From the IMG/VR virus record IMGVR_UViG_3300030419_003143, positions 1-26,854 of that record: a stretch of 26,854 bases of DNA; one strand, given 5' to 3'. Under the pieces are notes generated by a model, which was not told where the DNA came from, did no database searches, and saw nothing but the letters and a program-made list of their open reading frames with translations. This stretch comes from a virus. This document shows positions 5,991-24,699 of this stretch, in pieces (positions within the stretch are counted from its first letter, which is position 1; each line of letters begins with the position of its first letter). Position numbers and translations under genes: made by a program.

Positions 5991-5995
5991 GTTCT

Positions 5996-6067
5996 GTTAC
6001 AAATTGTTACAATTTAAATGAAGAAAAAGCTTGACTTATGTCAGGCTTTTTCCGTATATTATAGTGT
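5996..6067 (+). promoter_or_regulatory. GTTACA-box promoter 1 (25-bp spacing)
   Basis: GTTACA boxes start at 5996 and 6006. TTGACT is at 6031 (25 bp after the second box start) and TATATT at 6055-6060 with an 18-bp spacer. It is followed by the shared leader ATAGTGTATGATGAAAGAG. It drives the operon starting at 6104. Confidence 0.85.
6024..6051 (+). terminator. 12-bp hairpin overlapping a -35 element
   Basis: Bases 6024-6035 pair fully with 6040-6051 (one G-T pair) around a TTAT loop, with A5 on the left and T5 on the right arm. It has the shape of an intrinsic terminator for the metallopeptidase gene ending at 5990, yet it contains the TTGACT -35 of the next promoter. Confidence 0.6.
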
Positions 6068-6103
6068 ATGATGAAAGAGAATTTAAATAAAAAGGAAACA
6101 AGT

Positions 6104-6442
6104 ATGAAATTAAGTGAATGGTCTGATGACAAAAAGGTTTTAATGAATGGTTCTGACTATATAGAGTTAGAGAGTGTTGGTTCTGCTTTAACGAGTGAAC
6201 TTAATGTTTGTCCACTTATTGTGGGTGAGGGTATTGATATAGATAGTGGTGTTCATTTGTATGATGTATCTGATGAATGGTATTGTAATTTGAGTGATGA
6301 TGATTTAATATCATTCTTTGAGTTTATAGAAAATACAACTCATTTAATAGCTGATGTTTATATGGATTGGAAAACAAAGATATGGAGTATGTGGGAAGAA
6401 CATAATAATATTCTTATGAATTTAGATGACCCAAGGAGTTAA
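6104..6442 (+). CDS. Acidic 112-residue protein, unknown function, first gene of a GTTACA-box operon
   Basis: I choose ATG 6104 because AAAGGA (6091-6096) lies 7 bp upstream; an in-frame ATGATG at 6068 lies at the predicted transcription start and would add 12 residues. The protein is rich in Asp, Ser and Trp (YDVSDEWYCNLSDDDLISFF, MDWKTKIWSMWEEHNN) with no recognised domain. Its promoter places it in the same regulon as the nuclease, the structured RNA and the AAA+/VWA pair. Confidence 0.7.
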   Translation: MKLSEWSDDKKVLMNGSDYIELESVGSALTSELNVCPLIVGEGIDIDSGVHLYDVSDEWYCNLSDDDLISFFEFIENTTHLIADVYMDWKTKIWSMWEEHNNILMNLDDPRS

Positions 6443-9624: not shown

Positions 9625-9632
9625 GGAATGTT

Positions 9633-9694
9633 GTTACAATTTGTTACAATTAAAGCTTTGGTAATAATAACATAAAGTTTATATATTATAACAT
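9633..9694 (+). promoter_or_regulatory. GTTACA-box promoter 2 (15-bp spacing)
   Basis: Boxes start at 9633 and 9643. TTGGTA is at 9658 (15 bp after the second box start), TATATT at 9682-9687 with an 18-bp spacer. An ATG at 9695 stands at the predicted transcription start, in frame with the SD-led start at 9713. Confidence 0.82.
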
Positions 9695-9712
9695 ATGGTA
9701 AAGGAAAATAAA

Positions 9713-10462
9713 ATGAATGAATTGGTCAATGAGTTTTATAGTTTTAATAACACAACATCAGACACAATAGATTTAAGCGAAACAAATGGTTTATGGGAAG
9801 CTATTGTAAGATTGAAGAATGTTGGTAAAGCATATTCAGGTGATGGTTCAGAATTATTTGCTAACAATGACGGAACAGAATTTGAGAAAGAATTTGAAGA
9901 GTGTTTAAAATCAGTTGGTATAGAAGAACAAGATTCAATAGAAGTTATTGGTTATACTACAACAGACTTAAAAAGAATATTAAAACGACCAGATGATGTG
10001 TCGTTATGGGATAACTTGGAGTATCATTTTACACGAGTGTTTGAAGATAAGAATGTATTCATACCACAACCAGCTGGTGGTAATCACGAGCCGGACTTTA
10101 TAGTGTATTATGAAGGTAAGATATATCTATTTGAATGTAAGAAGAGTAACAACAAGACGCCATCGTATGGAGATAATGGTTGTCATCCAAGAGTGATATA
10201 TCTAATGAAGGGTAGATTAAAAAAACAACTAACTCATACTTGTTGGTTGGGTAGTGATTTGTTATCAGTTGAGGACTATGTACAAGGTTTAGAAGAAAGA
10301 GAAGAAGCTAAAGAAGCTATTAAACAGATACTAAAAGAATACTCAATGGTTAATGGTCGTGCTAGGTTGGGAACTAATCAAGATGTAGTTAATGTTATGG
10401 GAAACCCTGAAAGTTATCAGTATGAATTAAATGTTATGAATTATATATTGGGAGAGGTTTAA
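9713..10462 (+). CDS. PD-(D/E)XK-fold nuclease, orphan restriction-like
   Basis: I choose ATG 9713, with AAGGA (9701-9705) 7 bp upstream. The catalytic signature is PDF at 127-129 followed by the strand IYLFECKKS with E141 and K143, i.e. PD...ExK, and a basic patch before it (GGNHEPDF). Upstream glutamates in GTEFEKEFEE (54-63) could belong to the first core helix. The 249-residue length is usual for type II restriction enzymes and related nucleases. No methyltransferase gene is nearby, so it may cut host DNA that differs in modification from phage DNA, or act in repair. It is in the GTTACA-box regulon. Confidence 0.75.
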   Translation: MNELVNEFYSFNNTTSDTIDLSETNGLWEAIVRLKNVGKAYSGDGSELFANNDGTEFEKEFEECLKSVGIEEQDSIEVIGYTTTDLKRILKRPDDVSLWDNLEYHFTRVFEDKNVFIPQPAGGNHEPDFIVYYEGKIYLFECKKSNNKTPSYGDNGCHPRVIYLMKGRLKKQLTHTCWLGSDLLSVEDYVQGLEEREEAKEAIKQILKEYSMVNGRARLGTNQDVVNVMGNPESYQYELNVMNYILGEV

Positions 10463-11002: not shown

Positions 11003-11221
11003 ATGATACTATGGTATACTATTGATGATGTTTGTGGTGGTGTGTTGTGGTAGAGAGTGGGGAAAGGTGGTGAAACCACATAATAATGAGTGTCTTTAGT
11101 GTTATAATTTAATATGATGAACTTTAAAATATATAGTACATATACATATTGTAGAATACAAATTTTTTGTGGAAAAAGATAGCATGGCTACGAATACTTG
11201 TATCATACATAGTCTATCGTT
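11003..11221 (+). other. Non-coding stretch upstream of the structured RNA
   Basis: No supported gene. It begins with a G-rich segment (about 11031-11075, runs of GG and GGGG with GGTGGTGAAACCAC, a short 5-bp hairpin), then AT-rich DNA. The only start codon in good position at 11003 gives 16 residues. It may be the untranslated end of the preceding operon. Confidence 0.4.
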
Positions 11222-11293
11222 GTTACAATTTGTTACAATTTAAATGAAGAAAAAGCTTGGCTCATATAGGCAAAGCTTCGTATATTATAGTAT
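11222..11293 (+). promoter_or_regulatory. GTTACA-box promoter 3 (25-bp spacing) for the structured RNA
   Basis: Boxes start at 11222 and 11232. TTGGCT is at 11257 (25 bp after the second box start), TATATT at 11281-11286, spacer 18 bp. Transcription should start near 11293, three or four bases before the closing helix of the RNA. No start codon with a ribosome-binding site follows. Confidence 0.85.
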
Positions 11294-11653
11294 CAGTTGA
11301 GGAAATAGTTTTTTGAAATAGATTTACCGGTGCGGGGGTTCAGTATGAGAATGACTGAACAATAGCTTTCCGAAAAGGTTATAAGGTGACATCGAGGCCT
11401 GTAGTGGGCGATACAAGGTACACATCTGTATGAGTATCACAGGAGTAACTCCCTTCGAGATGGACAATATAGAAATAAAAAGACAAACTTGTGTTTTTGG
11501 CTATATTTGTGGGTATACAAGAGCCCCACTCACAACAGAAGAACCCCCAATTATTGAGAGATACCCGCATACTTAAAGGTTGAAGACAGGTTGCGTCAAA
11601 GCTTAACCCACCTTTCAGTCCCTCCGGGTTCTCTCCTCAAGTTTCATTACACG

Positions 11654-11686
11654 GGGTGTGGTCTTTTATTCCTTTCTACCACACTC
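11654..11686 (+). other. Hairpin 1 of the structured RNA, loop TTCCTTTCT
   Basis: GTGTGGT (11656-11662) pairs with ACCACAC (11678-11684), extendable by two pairs. The 15-nt loop contains TTCCTTTC, complementary to GAAAGGAA-type ribosome-binding sites such as those at 6091-6097, 9700-9706 and 14177-14184. Confidence 0.7.
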
Positions 11687-11690
11687 TATC

Positions 11691-11729
11691 GGGCCCATCG
11701 TTTACTCCTTTCCGATGGGCTCTTTTTTT
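11691..11729 (+). terminator. Intrinsic terminator and hairpin 2 of the structured RNA
   Basis: A 10-bp GC-rich stem (11691-11700 with 11713-11722, one G-T pair), loop TTTACTCCTTTC (11701-11712), then T7 (11723-11729). The loop contains CTCCTTT, complementary to AAAGGAG. Confidence 0.88.
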
Positions 11730-11906
11730 GCTTAGAATTATAGTTGTATAATACAAGTATATCTTGGATTGTCCATCCCGTTCGCTCAAAGATAGTATAT
11801 TTTTTTATGCTCCTCGTAAAAAAAGGCTTGGCTTATATATGAAAATAGTCGTAAATTATAGGGGGCTATATATAAAAAAAAAAGTTAAACCATAACTTTA
11901 AGCGTT
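11730..11906 (+). other. Non-coding stretch between the structured RNA and the CobS-like gene
   Basis: No ORF is supported. It contains TATCTT...AAGATA (11760-11796) followed by a T-rich tract, which may be a second weak terminator; a simple promoter at 11828; and the hairpin AAAGTTA/TAACTTT (11882-11900) preceded by a long A run. Confidence 0.45.
11828..11864 (+). promoter_or_regulatory. Promoter without boxes and without an adjacent ORF
   Basis: TTGGCT (11828-11833) preceded by AGGC, 18 bp, TAAATT (11852-11857). A transcript would begin near 11864 (GGGGGCTATATATA) and read a short hairpin, then the next promoter. It could give a short RNA or add to the 12005 transcript. Confidence 0.5.
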
Positions 11907-11967
11907 GTTACATATTGTTACAATTAAAGCTTTGATATAACGATATAATCTCCGTATATTATAGTGT
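11907..11967 (+). promoter_or_regulatory. GTTACA-box promoter 4 (15-bp spacing)
   Basis: Boxes start at 11907 and 11917. TTGATA is at 11932 (15 bp after the second box start), TATATT at 11955-11960, spacer 17 bp. A 14-codon ORF beginning at the predicted 5' end (ATG 11968) is out of frame with the gene at 12005 and ends across its start. Confidence 0.83.
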
Positions 11968-12004
11968 ATGAGAAAGAGAAAATTAATCAATAAAGGAGCT
12001 TTAA

Positions 12005-13213
12005 ATGGCTAAATCAATATTACTACCAGATGTGGTGGTTAAAGTAGAGAAATCAGGGAATCGGTACAATGCCTATTCTTCTGATGGTGTTAAGTATACA
12101 TCAGAGATTACGACAGGATGTCGTAAAAATGCTTATAATGGTGATTATCTTTTAGGTCGGTTCGTTTCAACAAATGGTAATAAAGGTTACGCTTGGCGTC
12201 GTATTACTGATAAGGTGTTAGCAGCTATGGGTGAGAATCCTGTTGTTAATAATACACCTTCAGACGACAACACTCCATCTGTTGAAATACCAAGTGAACA
12301 CGCTGAAGTAATGGCGTTTATACATAATAGTTATGGATTGAAACCACGAGGCTTAATGATGTCTGAACTCAAGTGGAAATACTTGGTTCGTTCTGCTGTT
12401 CGTGGTAAGAACATAATGATGACTGGTGCTGCTGGTTGTGGTAAGACTATGGCTGCTAAAGCTCTTGTTAATTCACTTGACCGACCTGATTTCTATTTCA
12501 ATCTTGGAGCTACCCAAGACCCGCGTGGTACTTTGATTGGTAATACTCACTTTGAAGATGGTAAAGGTACTTACTTTTCAGAGTCATTATTCGTTAAAGC
12601 TATTCAGACTCCAAACGCTGTAATACTATTAGATGAGTTGAGTAGGGCTCACCCAGATGCTTGGAACATCTTAATGACCGTTCTTGATTATGGTCAGAGG
12701 TACTTACGATTAGATGAACAAGATACCCAAGCTACTATTAAGGTTGCTGATGGTGTTACTTTTATTGCTACTGCTAATATAGGTAATGAGTATACATCAA
12801 CACGACAACTTGACAAAGCGTTAATGGATAGGTTCACTATTGTTGAGATGGACTTACTTAATGAGTCAGAAGAAACTGAATTACTGAACTATATGTTCCC
12901 TAATGTGGATAGTGTAGTATTAGGTAATGTGGCTAAGATAGCCTCTCTTACTCGAAGCGAAGCGACATCAGATACGGCTCGTATTCCTTTCGGTATTAGT
13001 ACTCGTACTACGGTTGAGTTGTGTGGCCTACTATATGATGGTTTTACTCTTGAGGAATCAGCTTCGGTGTGTATCTACCCTCAATACGACAACGCTGGTG
13101 GTGTTGATTCGGAGCGAACCTTCGTGAAACAGATTGTTCAAAAGTTCTGTGATGACGGAAGCGATGATGACTTGTTCAACGAGGACGAAGTAGAGGCTGC
13201 TACCTCAATGTAG
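12005..13213 (+). CDS. CobS/MoxR-type AAA+ ATPase
   Basis: After a 130-residue N-terminal region come Walker A GAAGCGKT (141-148), Walker B VILLDE (206-211), sensor 1 FIATAN (253-258) and DRF (275-277), the order and spacing of MoxR/CobS-class AAA+ proteins. AAAGGAG at 11993-11999 is its ribosome-binding site. Such ATPases work as hexamers with a VWA partner to remodel proteins or insert metals; the likely partner is the CobT-like protein at 22597, which uses the same promoter type. CobS-like genes are known from marine myophages. Arginine codons are mostly CGN here, whereas neighbours use AGA, which suggests separate acquisition or selection for expression. A true role in cobalt chelation is doubtful. 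Confidence 0.88.
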   Translation: MAKSILLPDVVVKVEKSGNRYNAYSSDGVKYTSEITTGCRKNAYNGDYLLGRFVSTNGNKGYAWRRITDKVLAAMGENPVVNNTPSDDNTPSVEIPSEHAEVMAFIHNSYGLKPRGLMMSELKWKYLVRSAVRGKNIMMTGAAGCGKTMAAKALVNSLDRPDFYFNLGATQDPRGTLIGNTHFEDGKGTYFSESLFVKAIQTPNAVILLDELSRAHPDAWNILMTVLDYGQRYLRLDEQDTQATIKVADGVTFIATANIGNEYTSTRQLDKALMDRFTIVEMDLLNESEETELLNYMFPNVDSVVLGNVAKIASLTRSEATSDTARIPFGISTRTTVELCGLLYDGFTLEESASVCIYPQYDNAGGVDSERTFVKQIVQKFCDDGSDDDLFNEDEVEAATSM

Positions 13214-13262: not shown

Positions 13263-13395
13263 GTTGTATCATCTTGAAAAGGTTTTTCGGTTTTACAAAG
13301 CATTTAAATAGGTCGCTCCGACTCGTAAACATTTCGTGGTCAATTTTTTCACTTATAGTAAATTAATACACTAACAAGCGTTGCCGATTACACTT

Positions 13396-13457
13396 GTTAC
13401 ATATTGTTACAATTAACCTATTGACTTATATACCTTGTTATCCCTATATTATAGTGT
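13396..13457 (+). promoter_or_regulatory. GTTACA-box promoter 5 (15-bp spacing)
   Basis: Boxes start at 13396 and 13406; TTGACT at 13421 (15 bp after the second box start); TATATT at 13445-13450 with an 18-bp spacer. The leader that follows repeats that of promoter 1 over more than 30 bases. Confidence 0.85.
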
Positions 13458-13493
13458 ATGATGAAAGAGAATTTAAATAAAAAAGGAGTTTTA

Positions 13494-13814
13494 ATGAGCA
13501 ATAACAATAATAATAATAAGTATTCACTTGATTTTAATAATTTAGATAGTACACCAAGTTGTGATATATTTGGTTATATGATGTCTTCTATGTGTGTTAC
13601 TACTAATAGGACTGCTGTAGAAGTTGTTGGGAAATTGTTTGAAATAAAGAAAATAATAAAACCTGCTTTAGTTCCTTATATTGATACTATATTAGAGAAC
13701 ATTATTGATTATGGTGATATTGATGATTATATGAATCACCTTACTGATAATGTTAATGAGTTTATTACCTCTGATGGTGAATTAGTTTCAGTTAAAGATT
13801 TAAGTTGGTTATAG
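13494..13814 (+). CDS. 106-residue acidic protein, unknown function
   Basis: I choose ATG 13494, with AAAAGGAG (13481-13487 region) ahead; the in-frame ATGATG at 13458 is the predicted 5' end of the mRNA. The protein opens with an Asn run (MSNNNNNNKYSLDFNNLD) and has a helical middle (KLFEIKKIIKPALVPYIDTI) and an acidic end. No family is recognised. It is the first gene of a three-gene operon in the GTTACA-box regulon. Confidence 0.68.
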   Translation: MSNNNNNNKYSLDFNNLDSTPSCDIFGYMMSSMCVTTNRTAVEVVGKLFEIKKIIKPALVPYIDTILENIIDYGDIDDYMNHLTDNVNEFITSDGELVSVKDLSWL

Positions 13815-14085: not shown

Positions 14086-14098
14086 CAACTTAAAACTT

Positions 14099-14170
14099 GT
14101 TACAACTTGTTACAATTTAATTATATAAAAAGCTTGGCTTGTATAGGTATTTATCCCTATATTATAGTGT
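14099..14170 (+). promoter_or_regulatory. GTTACA-box promoter 6 (25-bp spacing)
   Basis: Boxes start at 14099 and 14109; TTGGCT at 14134 (25 bp after the second box start); TATATT at 14158-14163, spacer 18 bp. An ATG at 14172, close to the predicted 5' end, is in frame with the gene at 14196. Confidence 0.84.
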
Positions 14171-14195
14171 AATGAGAAAGGAAAAAAATAAAGAA

Positions 14196-14594
14196 ATGAC
14201 AGAATTAACTTTTGAAAATGTACCAGAAATGACTTATTGGAAAAACCCAAAAACAGGCACTATATTAAGTTTGGGTATTTATAGAGAAGAATGGAGTAAT
14301 CCAAATCCAAATCGTTGTAATTTGACTACTACTAACACAAGATACGAATTAAGTTATTACTACACTTGGGATGAGATAGTTGAGAAATTTGAGTATTTAG
14401 GTGAGTGTAATGATAATGATTATTATCTTAATGTTATTGCTAATAAAAACCTTTATTGGAGATACAGACAAGCTAAAAAGGGTTTACCAAGTAGATTAAG
14501 ATATATTAAAAATGGTGGTGATAGCAATATGGTAAAAAGGAGTGTTGAAGAATATACCACTTGGATAAACGATTTTGAAAGTAAATTTAATTAA
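14196..14594 (+). CDS. 132-residue protein, unknown function
   Basis: I start at ATG 14196 (MTELTFENVPEMTYWKNP), behind AAAGGAAAA; longer starts run into the promoter. The protein is rich in Tyr, Trp and Asn and is probably alpha-beta. No domain is recognised. It is the first gene of a four-gene operon in the GTTACA-box regulon. Confidence 0.65.
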   Translation: MTELTFENVPEMTYWKNPKTGTILSLGIYREEWSNPNPNRCNLTTTNTRYELSYYYTWDEIVEKFEYLGECNDNDYYLNVIANKNLYWRYRQAKKGLPSRLRYIKNGGDSNMVKRSVEEYTTWINDFESKFN

Positions 14595-21512: not shown

Positions 21513-21549
21513 TTGACACATATCATTTTTTATTTGTATATTTAAATAT
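21513..21549 (+). promoter_or_regulatory. Promoter predicted to give a leaderless mRNA
   Basis: TTGACA (21513-21518) preceded by AAGC, 18 bp, TATATT (21537-21542). The ATG at 21548 coincides with the expected transcription start. The 90-bp region is divergent, with the dockerin gene reading the other way. Confidence 0.7.
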
Positions 21550-22006
21550 GAATTTAGATAAGAAAATAGTTATATTTGATTTAGATGGTACTCTCGCGTT
21601 AATAGATAAACGGAGAATTATATCCACAAAAGATAATGGTAAAATTGATTGGGTTAAATTTCAAGACCCAAAGAACATTGATTTAGATTTACCAAATCAA
21701 CCAGTTATAGATATATCCAATATGTTGTTTACAAAGGGTTTCACAATTAAGATTCTATCAGGTCGTTCTGATGTAACAAAACAAGCTACAATGGATTGGT
21801 TGCTTAAACACGATGTTTGGTTTGATACTCTTACAATGCGACCTCAAAAACATCTGTTCATGCCAGACAACGATTTAAAACAAATGTGGTTAGATGATAT
21901 TGGTGTAGATAATGTTGCTATGGTATTTGACGACAGAAACCAAGTTGTTGATATGTGGCGAGATAATGGTCTTACTTGTTTCCAAGTTGCAAAAGGAGAT
22001 TTTTAA
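21548..22006 (+). CDS. HAD phosphatase, PseT (polynucleotide kinase 3'-phosphatase)-like
   Basis: DLDGTLA at residues 11-17 is the HAD nucleophile motif, LSGRSD motif II, and the end VFDDRNQVVDMWRDNGLTC with QVAKGDF closely follows the C-terminal phosphatase domain of T4 PNK (DDRTQVVEMWR..G..CWQVASGDF). The kinase half is absent, so this 152-residue protein would only remove 3'-phosphates from DNA or RNA ends, for repair or after tRNA cleavage. Leaderless start at 21548. It overlaps the next gene by one base (TAATG). Confidence 0.87.
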   Translation: MNLDKKIVIFDLDGTLALIDKRRIISTKDNGKIDWVKFQDPKNIDLDLPNQPVIDISNMLFTKGFTIKILSGRSDVTKQATMDWLLKHDVWFDTLTMRPQKHLFMPDNDLKQMWLDDIGVDNVAMVFDDRNQVVDMWRDNGLTCFQVAKGDF

Positions 22007-22497: not shown

Positions 22498-22499
22498 TT

Positions 22500-22560
22500 G
22501 TTACAAATTGTTACAATTTACCTATTGTATATTCCTCAAAATCTCCGTATATTTATATAG
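22500..22560 (+). promoter_or_regulatory. GTTACA-box promoter 7 (15-bp spacing)
   Basis: Boxes start at 22500 and 22510; TTGTAT at 22525 (15 bp after the second box start); TATATT at 22548-22553 with a 17-bp spacer. An ATGATG at the predicted 5' end (22561) is 36 bp before and in frame with the SD-led start at 22597, as in promoters 1 and 5. Confidence 0.83.
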
Positions 22561-22596
22561 ATGATGAGAGAGAAAAAAGATAACAAAAGGAGTTTT

Positions 22597-24699
22597 ATGA
22601 GTTTTAACTCAAAAGATTATAAAGGTTTTACTTTCCGTAGTGGGCCTGTAAAAAACAAGACTAAATCTTATTCTTCGTTTTGGGATGATTCGTCTGATGA
22701 TGTTGATGTAGATGAATTTCTCGGTAATGATGTTAATAAACCTAAAGGTAAAGATTTAGTTGCTTTGGCTGGTTATAAAAGAGCCATTAGTAACTTTGTT
22801 AATATTGTTACTGGTGATAACATTCCTGTTGTATTTAACTCTAAAGATGAAAGTTATACAGATGGTAATAAAGTTGTTATTGGTTCTAATATTGATGATA
22901 AGAAATTTGATGTGGCTGTTGGGTTGGCTCTTCACGAGGGTTCTCATATTAAACTTTCTGATTTTAATTTATTAAAGAATTTAGAGATGGAAATTCCTCA
23001 AGAACTTTTTGTTCTTGGTGAAAGTGTTGGTGTTCATAGACATGAAGTTATCACTACTGTAAAATCTCTATTAAATTATATTGAAGATAGAAGAATTGAT
23101 TCTTTTATTTTCAGAACTTCTCCTGGTTATAAAGGTTATTATCACTCTATGTATGATAAGTATTTTTATTCTAAACAAGTTGATAAAGGTTTACTATCTT
23201 CAGAGTTTAGGGTTGAAAATATTGAGTCTTATATGTTTAGGATTATTAATCTTCATAATTCTAATCGTCAGTTAGGTTCTCTTAAAGGTCTTAAAGAAAT
23301 TTATCACACTATTGATTTGGGTTCTATTCAAAAAGGTTTTATGAAAGATACTCGTGAAGCTTTCAATACTGCTTGTGAAGTTATGAATATTATTCTTTTC
23401 AGTATTGATAAGATTGAAACATCAGATGATGAATCAGAAGGTAATCAAAATGGTTCTGATGGTGATGATGAAAATCCTGGCGGTAATGGTTCAGGTGGTG
23501 GTAATACTATCTCCGATGAAGAACTTGAAGATATGATTGAAAATGGTAACATCGGTAGTGGTAATGGTACTCCTAATGATGATGGTTCAGAAGCTGTTGA
23601 ACTTTCAGATAGACAAAAAGAAATGTTGAGAAAAGCTTTTCAAAAACAAGAAAAGTTTCTTGATGGTGATGTTCAAAAAACTTTAATGTCTAAAAAAGAT
23701 AAAAAAGATATGTCAACTCTTGAGGAAAGTGGAGCGAGTTATGAACAAGTTGGTGAAGGTGTTCAAAAAGATTACTATGGTGATGCTGTTGGAAACGGAA
23801 CTAAATGCTTGGTTGTTAAAAAATTAACTCAAGCTCTGATTGATTCTAATACTTTTGGTTGTGCTAATAGTACTAATCAAAGATATTATAATAATAGTAG
23901 TTACAGAAATTACAACTTTGTTGAAGAAGGTTTGAGACTTGGTTCTGTTCTCGGAAGAAAACTTAAAGTTCGTGGTGAGGAAACTTCACTTAAATATTCA
24001 AGACAAGAATCTGGAAAGATTGATAAGAGAATGTTATCTGAACTTGGTTTCGGAAATTCAAATGTGTTCTCTCAAACTTTTATTGAAAGATTTAACAAAG
24101 CTTATCTTCATATTTCAGTTGATGCTAGTGGTTCTATGAATGGTGACAAGTGGAACAAAGCTATGACATCAGCGGTGGCTATGATTAAGGCTTGTGATAT
24201 GGCTGGTAACATTGATGTGGTTGTTTCAATTAGAACTACTAATTATAAATATGGTGATAGCGGTCAAGGTGTTCCATTAATTATGGTTTGTTACGATTCA
24301 AGAACTGATAAACTTGTTAAAGTTAAAAATCTTTTCTCGGCTCTTGATGTTGATGGTGTTACTCCTGAAGGTTTGTGTTTCGAAGCGATTCAAAAAGATT
24401 TGATTCCTGGAAATTCTAATCAAGATAGTTACTTTATTAACTTTTCAGATGGTCAGCCTTGGTTCAGTAATAAAGAAATTAGATATTCTGGAACTACTGC
24501 TGAAAATCACACTAAAAAGATGTGTAACAATATGAGAGCTATGGGTATTAGTGTGTTGAGTTACTTTATTGGTGGTAAGTACGAACAAGATGAAATGCCT
24601 GCTTTCAAAAAGATGTATGGTAATGATGCTCAATTTATTAACGCTACTAATATGATGGAAGTGGCTAAGACAATGAACAAAAAATTCTTGGAGAAATAA
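22597..24699 (+). CDS. CobT-like protein with HExxH metallopeptidase-like and VWA domains
   Basis: ATG 22597 has AAAAGGAG ahead. The 700 residues show an N-terminal HEGSH (113-117) with a later IEDRRID block (162-168) that could supply further zinc ligands, a Gly/Asp/Asn-rich linker (about 276-335), a CobT-like segment (SGKIDKRMLSELGF), and a C-terminal VWA domain with MIDAS DASGS (509-513) and NFSDGQPWF. It is the natural partner of the CobS/MoxR-type ATPase at 12005, which shares promoter type. MoxR-VWA pairs remodel or activate large protein complexes. A peptidase-like domain joined to the VWA hints at ATPase-driven proteolysis or maturation. Codons are strikingly T-ending (CTT, TCT, GGT, GTT). 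Confidence 0.87.
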   Translation: MSFNSKDYKGFTFRSGPVKNKTKSYSSFWDDSSDDVDVDEFLGNDVNKPKGKDLVALAGYKRAISNFVNIVTGDNIPVVFNSKDESYTDGNKVVIGSNIDDKKFDVAVGLALHEGSHIKLSDFNLLKNLEMEIPQELFVLGESVGVHRHEVITTVKSLLNYIEDRRIDSFIFRTSPGYKGYYHSMYDKYFYSKQVDKGLLSSEFRVENIESYMFRIINLHNSNRQLGSLKGLKEIYHTIDLGSIQKGFMKDTREAFNTACEVMNIILFSIDKIETSDDESEGNQNGSDGDDENPGGNGSGGGNTISDEELEDMIENGNIGSGNGTPNDDGSEAVELSDRQKEMLRKAFQKQEKFLDGDVQKTLMSKKDKKDMSTLEESGASYEQVGEGVQKDYYGDAVGNGTKCLVVKKLTQALIDSNTFGCANSTNQRYYNNSSYRNYNFVEEGLRLGSVLGRKLKVRGEETSLKYSRQESGKIDKRMLSELGFGNSNVFSQTFIERFNKAYLHISVDASGSMNGDKWNKAMTSAVAMIKACDMAGNIDVVVSIRTTNYKYGDSGQGVPLIMVCYDSRTDKLVKVKNLFSALDVDGVTPEGLCFEAIQKDLIPGNSNQDSYFINFSDGQPWFSNKEIRYSGTTAENHTKKMCNNMRAMGISVLSYFIGGKYEQDEMPAFKKMYGNDAQFINATNMMEVAKTMNKKFLEK

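Follow-up and report, generated by a model that had tools for sequence, protein, structure and literature searches.

Twin hairpins in a putative non-coding RNA of a T4-like phage carry conserved loops complementary to the Shine-Dalgarno sequences of an operator-defined gene set

An uncultured marine T4-like phage appears, judging from its sequence, to encode a non-coding RNA of ~430 nt (~11293-11729) that carries twin hairpins at its 3' end, and this RNA probably tunes the translation of the phage's own gene set. On balance, we favour the view that it is a regulatory RNA complementary to Shine-Dalgarno (SD) sequences, resembling RNAIII and CyaR in its action without being homologous to them, whose loops would pair with the SDs of its targets. 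Positions refer to the window, i.e., the whole stretch of 26,854 nt that was analysed, which belongs to a virus contig of 37,474 bases. An initial annotation of this window had proposed two hairpins with SD-complementary loops that might act on a common regulon or on host mRNAs. This interpretation is partly supported, and its conservation and regulon parts proved stronger than expected. The elements of the RNA are as follows.

11221-11237, plus strand: the RNA's own operator TGTTACAATTTGTTACA, one of seven copies in the window, upstream of the RNA promoter and 36 nt from its -35 element
11257-11286, plus strand: sigma70-like promoter TTGGCT-N18-TATATT, upstream of the non-coding RNA
11325-11538, plus strand: manA-like RNA domain (Rfam RF01745; covariance model 49.6 bits, E 2e-11)
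11556-11639, plus strand: second conserved structured element, GAGAGAnACCnGCATACTT...CAGTCCCTCnnGGTTCTCTCCTCA, found at nine loci, with two-sided changes in its closing helix
11653-11687, plus strand: hairpin 1, 10 bp, loop CUUUUAUUCCUUUCU, core UCCUUU at 11670-11675, without a U-tract
11691-11722, plus strand: hairpin 2, 10 bp, loop UUUACUCCUUUC, core at 11706-11711, terminator-like and followed by U7
11723-11729, plus strand: U7 tract, the presumed 3' end of the RNA

The transcript is predicted to start at ~11293, and the RNA is preceded by the same promoter layout in relatives. Its upstream domain matches the manA motif with a score just below the gathering score of RF01745 (55.2 bits), and the matches of relatives from the same phage group exceed this cut-off (70.8 and 66.9 bits). 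The second structured element was also found in L003, L004, L006, L009, L010, L013, L043, and L048, and its closing helix co-varies; an Rfam search with the relatives' copies returned no match. The original description of the manA motif presents it as probably belonging to 5'UTRs (PMC2864571), whereas in the phage RNA it is joined with other modules ahead of a terminator. In Synechococcus phage S-CREM1, a manA RNA (L082:10132-10643) adjoins tRNA-Leu and tRNA-Asn within a tRNA array. Such a location speaks against a riboswitch in a 5'UTR in this phage and agrees with a separate RNA. An 'abiF' hit located 3' of the S-CREM1 manA was rejected as an abiF RNA, its hairpin being unrelated, and no loop hairpin of the type described below was found in positions 1-150000 of S-CREM1.

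The same non-coding transcripts contain, in several relatives, a tRNA-shaped element of 71-72 nt (L004:2646-2716, L006:2423-2494 and 2505-2576, L007:2412-2482, L009:2598-2668, L012:2496-2567). All 22 of its 22 pairs are retained, 12 of them with two-sided changes, and its T-loop reads GGCAGUU. It yielded no tRNA call and no Rfam match (searched to E 1 for L004, L006, L009, and L012, and at the gathering score for L007). In G012 and G015, the counterpart nearest to this element is an ordinary tRNA-Gly(UCC), which adjoins manA.

Both hairpins were confirmed where they had been annotated, at 11653-11687 and 11691-11722. Folded jointly, they reach -30.5 kcal/mol (z = -6.5), a value equalled by none of 200 shuffles, and both loops remain unpaired when the whole RNA is folded. 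Hairpin 2 has the G+C-rich, perfect stem and the following U-tract of an intrinsic terminator; hairpin 1 does not. Loop 1 (AUUCCUUU) is complementary to SDs of the AAAGGAA type and loop 2 (ACUCCUUU) to those of the AAAGGAG type. A likeness of the loops to the 3' end of 16S rRNA had also been pointed out; the match is partial, and ATTCC and TTTCC variants are common.

The window carries a gene for a MoxR-type ATPase, and relatives of this gene come from T4-like phage contigs in IMG/VR, several of them with gp23. The major capsid protein of these phages is only ~52% identical to that of the nearest named phages, and the MoxR loci of the nearest named records, Mel-JY01 and LR756508, were found without the loop. 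Further MoxR queries largely retrieved the same contigs again. A bacterial origin of the loop was rejected, the matches to the loop word in bacterial genomes having no convincing stems. Two other features were seen 3' of MoxR. A long hairpin, CCUCCGAGGUUCU...GUUAAAAGGCCUCCGAGG, is found in L020, L024, L033, L039, L052, and L071, and sits before the loop hairpin where the latter is present. A CUCUCUC-like pyrimidine run directly precedes the hairpin that follows a small post-MoxR ORF in L027, L038, L040, L051, L054, L065, L067, and L068.

At the MoxR loci of relatives, the loop of the twin hairpins reappears on other stems, and the strongest word enrichment in the strong-hairpin loops of relatives is that of UCCUUU-type words. 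After removal of duplicates, 57 distinct UCCUUU-loop hairpins were collected, all 57 on the coding strand. This recurrence indicates that the likeness of the loops is not due to chance. UCCUUU was the search term of this collection, and the flanking loop bases are conserved as well (consensus UUUWYUCCUUUCU). The non-redundant set comprises 41 hairpins, one of which, in L045, looks incidental. Loop length ranges over ~10-23 nt, and the distance from core to stem varies. The twin arrangement is kept at six loci, where type AUUCCUUUCU prevails in loop 1 and type ACUCCUUU in loop 2. Across these orthologous hairpins, identity is 0.27-0.44 for the stem arms and 0.87-0.90 for the loops; the near-identical loops on unrelated stems first noticed in the window thus hold in relatives, where the loops do not vary freely. 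In 14 records totalling 1.28 Mb, 21 of 593 strong hairpins bear the UCCUUU loop: 10 follow MoxR, 2 follow gp32 (assigned by Pfam), 9 lie in the non-coding RNA, and none is found elsewhere.

The genes that the RNA might act on are defined by a tandem operator, TGTTACANNTTGTTACA, which occurs in seven exact copies in the window, versus 0.29 expected even with two mismatches allowed. These copies start at 5995, 9632, 11221, 11906, 13395, 14098, and 22499, upstream of seven transcription units; their distance to the -35 element that follows is mostly 26 or 36 nt, and the promoters end in TATATT. Six of them precede the following genes and the seventh precedes the non-coding RNA.

5995-6097, plus strand: regulon gene 6104-6442, with operator 5995-6011, promoter, and AAAGGAA SD at 6091
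9632-9706, plus strand: regulon gene 9713-10462, with operator 9632-9648, promoter, and AAAGGAA SD at 9700
11906-11998, plus strand: MoxR-type ATPase gene 12005-13213, with operator 11906-11922, promoter, and AAAGGAG SD at 11992
13395-13488, plus strand: regulon gene 13494-13814, with operator 13395-13411, promoter, and AAAGGAG SD at 13482
14098-14183, plus strand: regulon gene 14196-14594, with operator 14098-14114, promoter, and AAAGGAA SD at 14177
22499-22592, plus strand: regulon gene 22597-24699 (VWA-like MoxR partner), with operator 22499-22515 and AAAGGAG SD at 22586

These are the six genes whose SDs had initially been listed as belonging to one regulon; every SD was recovered to within 1 nt, and each gene, like the RNA, stands behind the operator. 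Membership of the regulon is most constant for MoxR and the VWA-like gene. The window also encodes, at 21548-22006, a polynucleotide kinase-type phosphatase domain (Pfam HAD_PNKP), possibly from an RNA-repair gene.

Across the whole window, AAAGGAR is found about as often as expected by chance (17 matches versus 14.4), and six of these matches serve as SDs for genes that come first after an operator. In genomes G000, G003, G007, G008, and G009, an AAAGGA SD was found for all 22 operator-linked first genes versus 44 of 359 other genes (Fisher's exact test, 6e-19, with orthologs counted although they are not independent). Three genomes fetched later (G025, G026, and G005) presented the pattern in 11 of 14 operator-linked calls, and for two of the three exceptions the operator has two mismatches and reads as the motif on the opposite strand. 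The commonest SDs of the pooled genomes are TAGGAG-like.

The loop base next to the core and the SD base of the regulon also track each other across genomes. The loop base at -1 (5' of the core) can pair with the SD base at +1 (3' of AAAGGA) in 11.8 of 12 genomes, where permutation gives 8.6 (p = 0.0013, or 0.005 without G-U pairs), in a post hoc test framed once the data had been inspected and covering 12 related genomes uncorrected for phylogeny. Nearly all regulon SDs are AAAGGAG in genomes that have ACUCC loops only, and the window, with both loop types, has three AAAGGAA and three AAAGGAG SDs. Genome G005 carries a rare AGUCC loop, the only one with G at -1, and its SDs are AAAGGAU, which would form a U-G pair. 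AAAGGAA SDs were predicted from the twin loops of G002 and G008 and were not seen there, and the conserved C that follows the core (UUUC) is mismatched to most SDs. Finally, a genome-wide scan for trans targets, the check suggested at the outset, gave modest pairing energies and no outstanding targets; SD sites were modestly enriched among the best sites, and the pairings were not concentrated on them.

RNAIII and CyaR act through hairpin loops that are C-rich or carry an anti-SD (PMC2837412). As in these RNAs, the phage hairpins present a conserved anti-SD sequence in an unpaired loop, and the candidate targets form a coherent set with complementary SDs. RNAIII of S. aureus is likewise a long RNA whose SD-complementary loops (hairpins 7, 13, and 14), some of them near the 3' end, are conserved as a signature (PMC2837412). 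The phage RNA differs from it in being phage-encoded, in exchanging its stems between relatives, in having a UCCUUU rather than a UCCC core, and in facing genes that share an operator and a distinct SD, with which its pairing is predicted. No sequence homology between the two was seen. Indeed, an Rfam search of the hairpin region up to E 10 returned no RNAIII and a weak suhB-type match alone (19.2 bits, gathering score 41), and homology to known RNAs sought over the twin hairpins was not found. RNAIII, to which the loops had been likened, is an analogue in principle and not a relative. CyaR of E. coli and other small RNAs with anti-SD loops share the conserved anti-SD in a hairpin loop (PMC2837412) and are not homologous as far as tested; the phage version rides on a manA-like RNA and has two loops.

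The main rival that remains is a shared protein reader. A phage or host RNA-binding protein might recognise the single-stranded UCCUUU loop as a 3'-end signal and thereby protect, process, or localise the MoxR mRNA, the gp32 mRNA, and the non-coding RNA. The animal histone stem-loop is a comparable protein-read 3'-end signal. Unrelated transcripts do end in the same loop, and a U-tract accompanies only 15 of the 41 non-redundant hairpins, which suggests that these are more than terminators. The loops in MoxR 3'UTRs do not change in step with the SD of the gene they come after, and the gp32 copies are associated with a different SD type (the two gp32 genes with a loop hairpin have a TAGGAG SD, TAGGAGAA). 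However, the variable loop size and core-to-stem distance are unlike those of typical hairpins read by proteins, and a protein reader leaves the match to the regulon's AAAGGA SD unexplained. We regard this explanation as rather unlikely, while keeping it in view.

Much less probable is a contact in cis, within the MoxR mRNA, between its 3'UTR hairpin and its own SD. The staphylococcal icaR mRNA has such a contact between its 3'UTR and SD (PMC3868564), and its 3'UTR motif complementary to the SD resembles the MoxR 3'UTR copies. Runs with 12-15 complementary bases in L044, L050, and L060, and the combination of an AAGGGT SD and loop UUACCCUU in L027/L030, would fit this explanation, as would an earlier permutation of MoxR loops against their own SDs (p = 3e-4). 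The permutation result weakens or loses significance at identities below 85%. Among 18 sister pairs, the loop fits its own SD better than the sister's in 8 cases and worse in 8, so that the co-variation with the gene's own SD expected of an icaR-type contact was not seen in the phage set. Because this contrast is null, the significant permutation probably reflects phylogeny and a few lineages, and MoxR loop pairing with its own SD was rejected as a general rule. Moreover, gp32 loops misfit their own SD, and pairing in cis is inapplicable to a separate non-coding RNA.

It is very improbable that the hairpins are plain intrinsic terminators whose loop was kept by chance or shared descent: the perfect stem and U7 of hairpin 2 would suit this, but the stems turn over fully while the loops persist, most copies lack a U-tract, and the other strong hairpins of the same genomes do not have the loop. 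We give equally little credence to a decoy RNA that would shield the ribosome from a host toxin nuclease by mimicking its rRNA targets, the UCCUU/UUCCU sites of the 16S tail and of helix 70 in 23S rRNA. UCCUU always lies within the core, and MazF-mt3 and MazF-mt6 recognise U^CCUU and UU^CCU in rRNA (PMC5408214), but no such toxin is known for the host, and the link between operator and SD is left unexplained.

Under the preferred explanation, a regulatory RNA acting on SDs in trans, the twin hairpins would serve as the effector module at the 3' end of a phage RNA that is transcribed on its own, under operator control, and terminated by hairpin 2. Each hairpin would present an open pyrimidine loop with a fixed UCCUUU core on an exchangeable stem, loop 1 pairing with the AAAGGAA and loop 2 with the AAAGGAG SDs of genes that share the RNA's operator. 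This pairing may lower, delay, or balance translation of the regulon (the MoxR ATPase, its VWA-like partner, and others), and the RNA, produced along with its targets, would act as a feed-back RNA. More tentatively, the regulon might possess its own SD type (AAAGGAR, versus the TAGGAG common in these genomes), which a co-transcribed RNA would read by twin loops fitted to the SD sub-types. A translation code of this kind, made by the phage and with co-evolving loops and SDs, is a possibility that we would not yet call likely; other lineages might use MoxR and gp32 3'UTRs instead.

If the preferred explanation is true, a lytic phage would co-ordinate a gene set at two levels, by one operator for transcription and by one SD type with a matching RNA for translation, and the sequence by itself would suffice to recognise this two-level link. 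For the manA RNA, which has been an orphan motif since 2010, this would provide a genomic context in which it belongs to a separate regulatory RNA and not to an mRNA leader.
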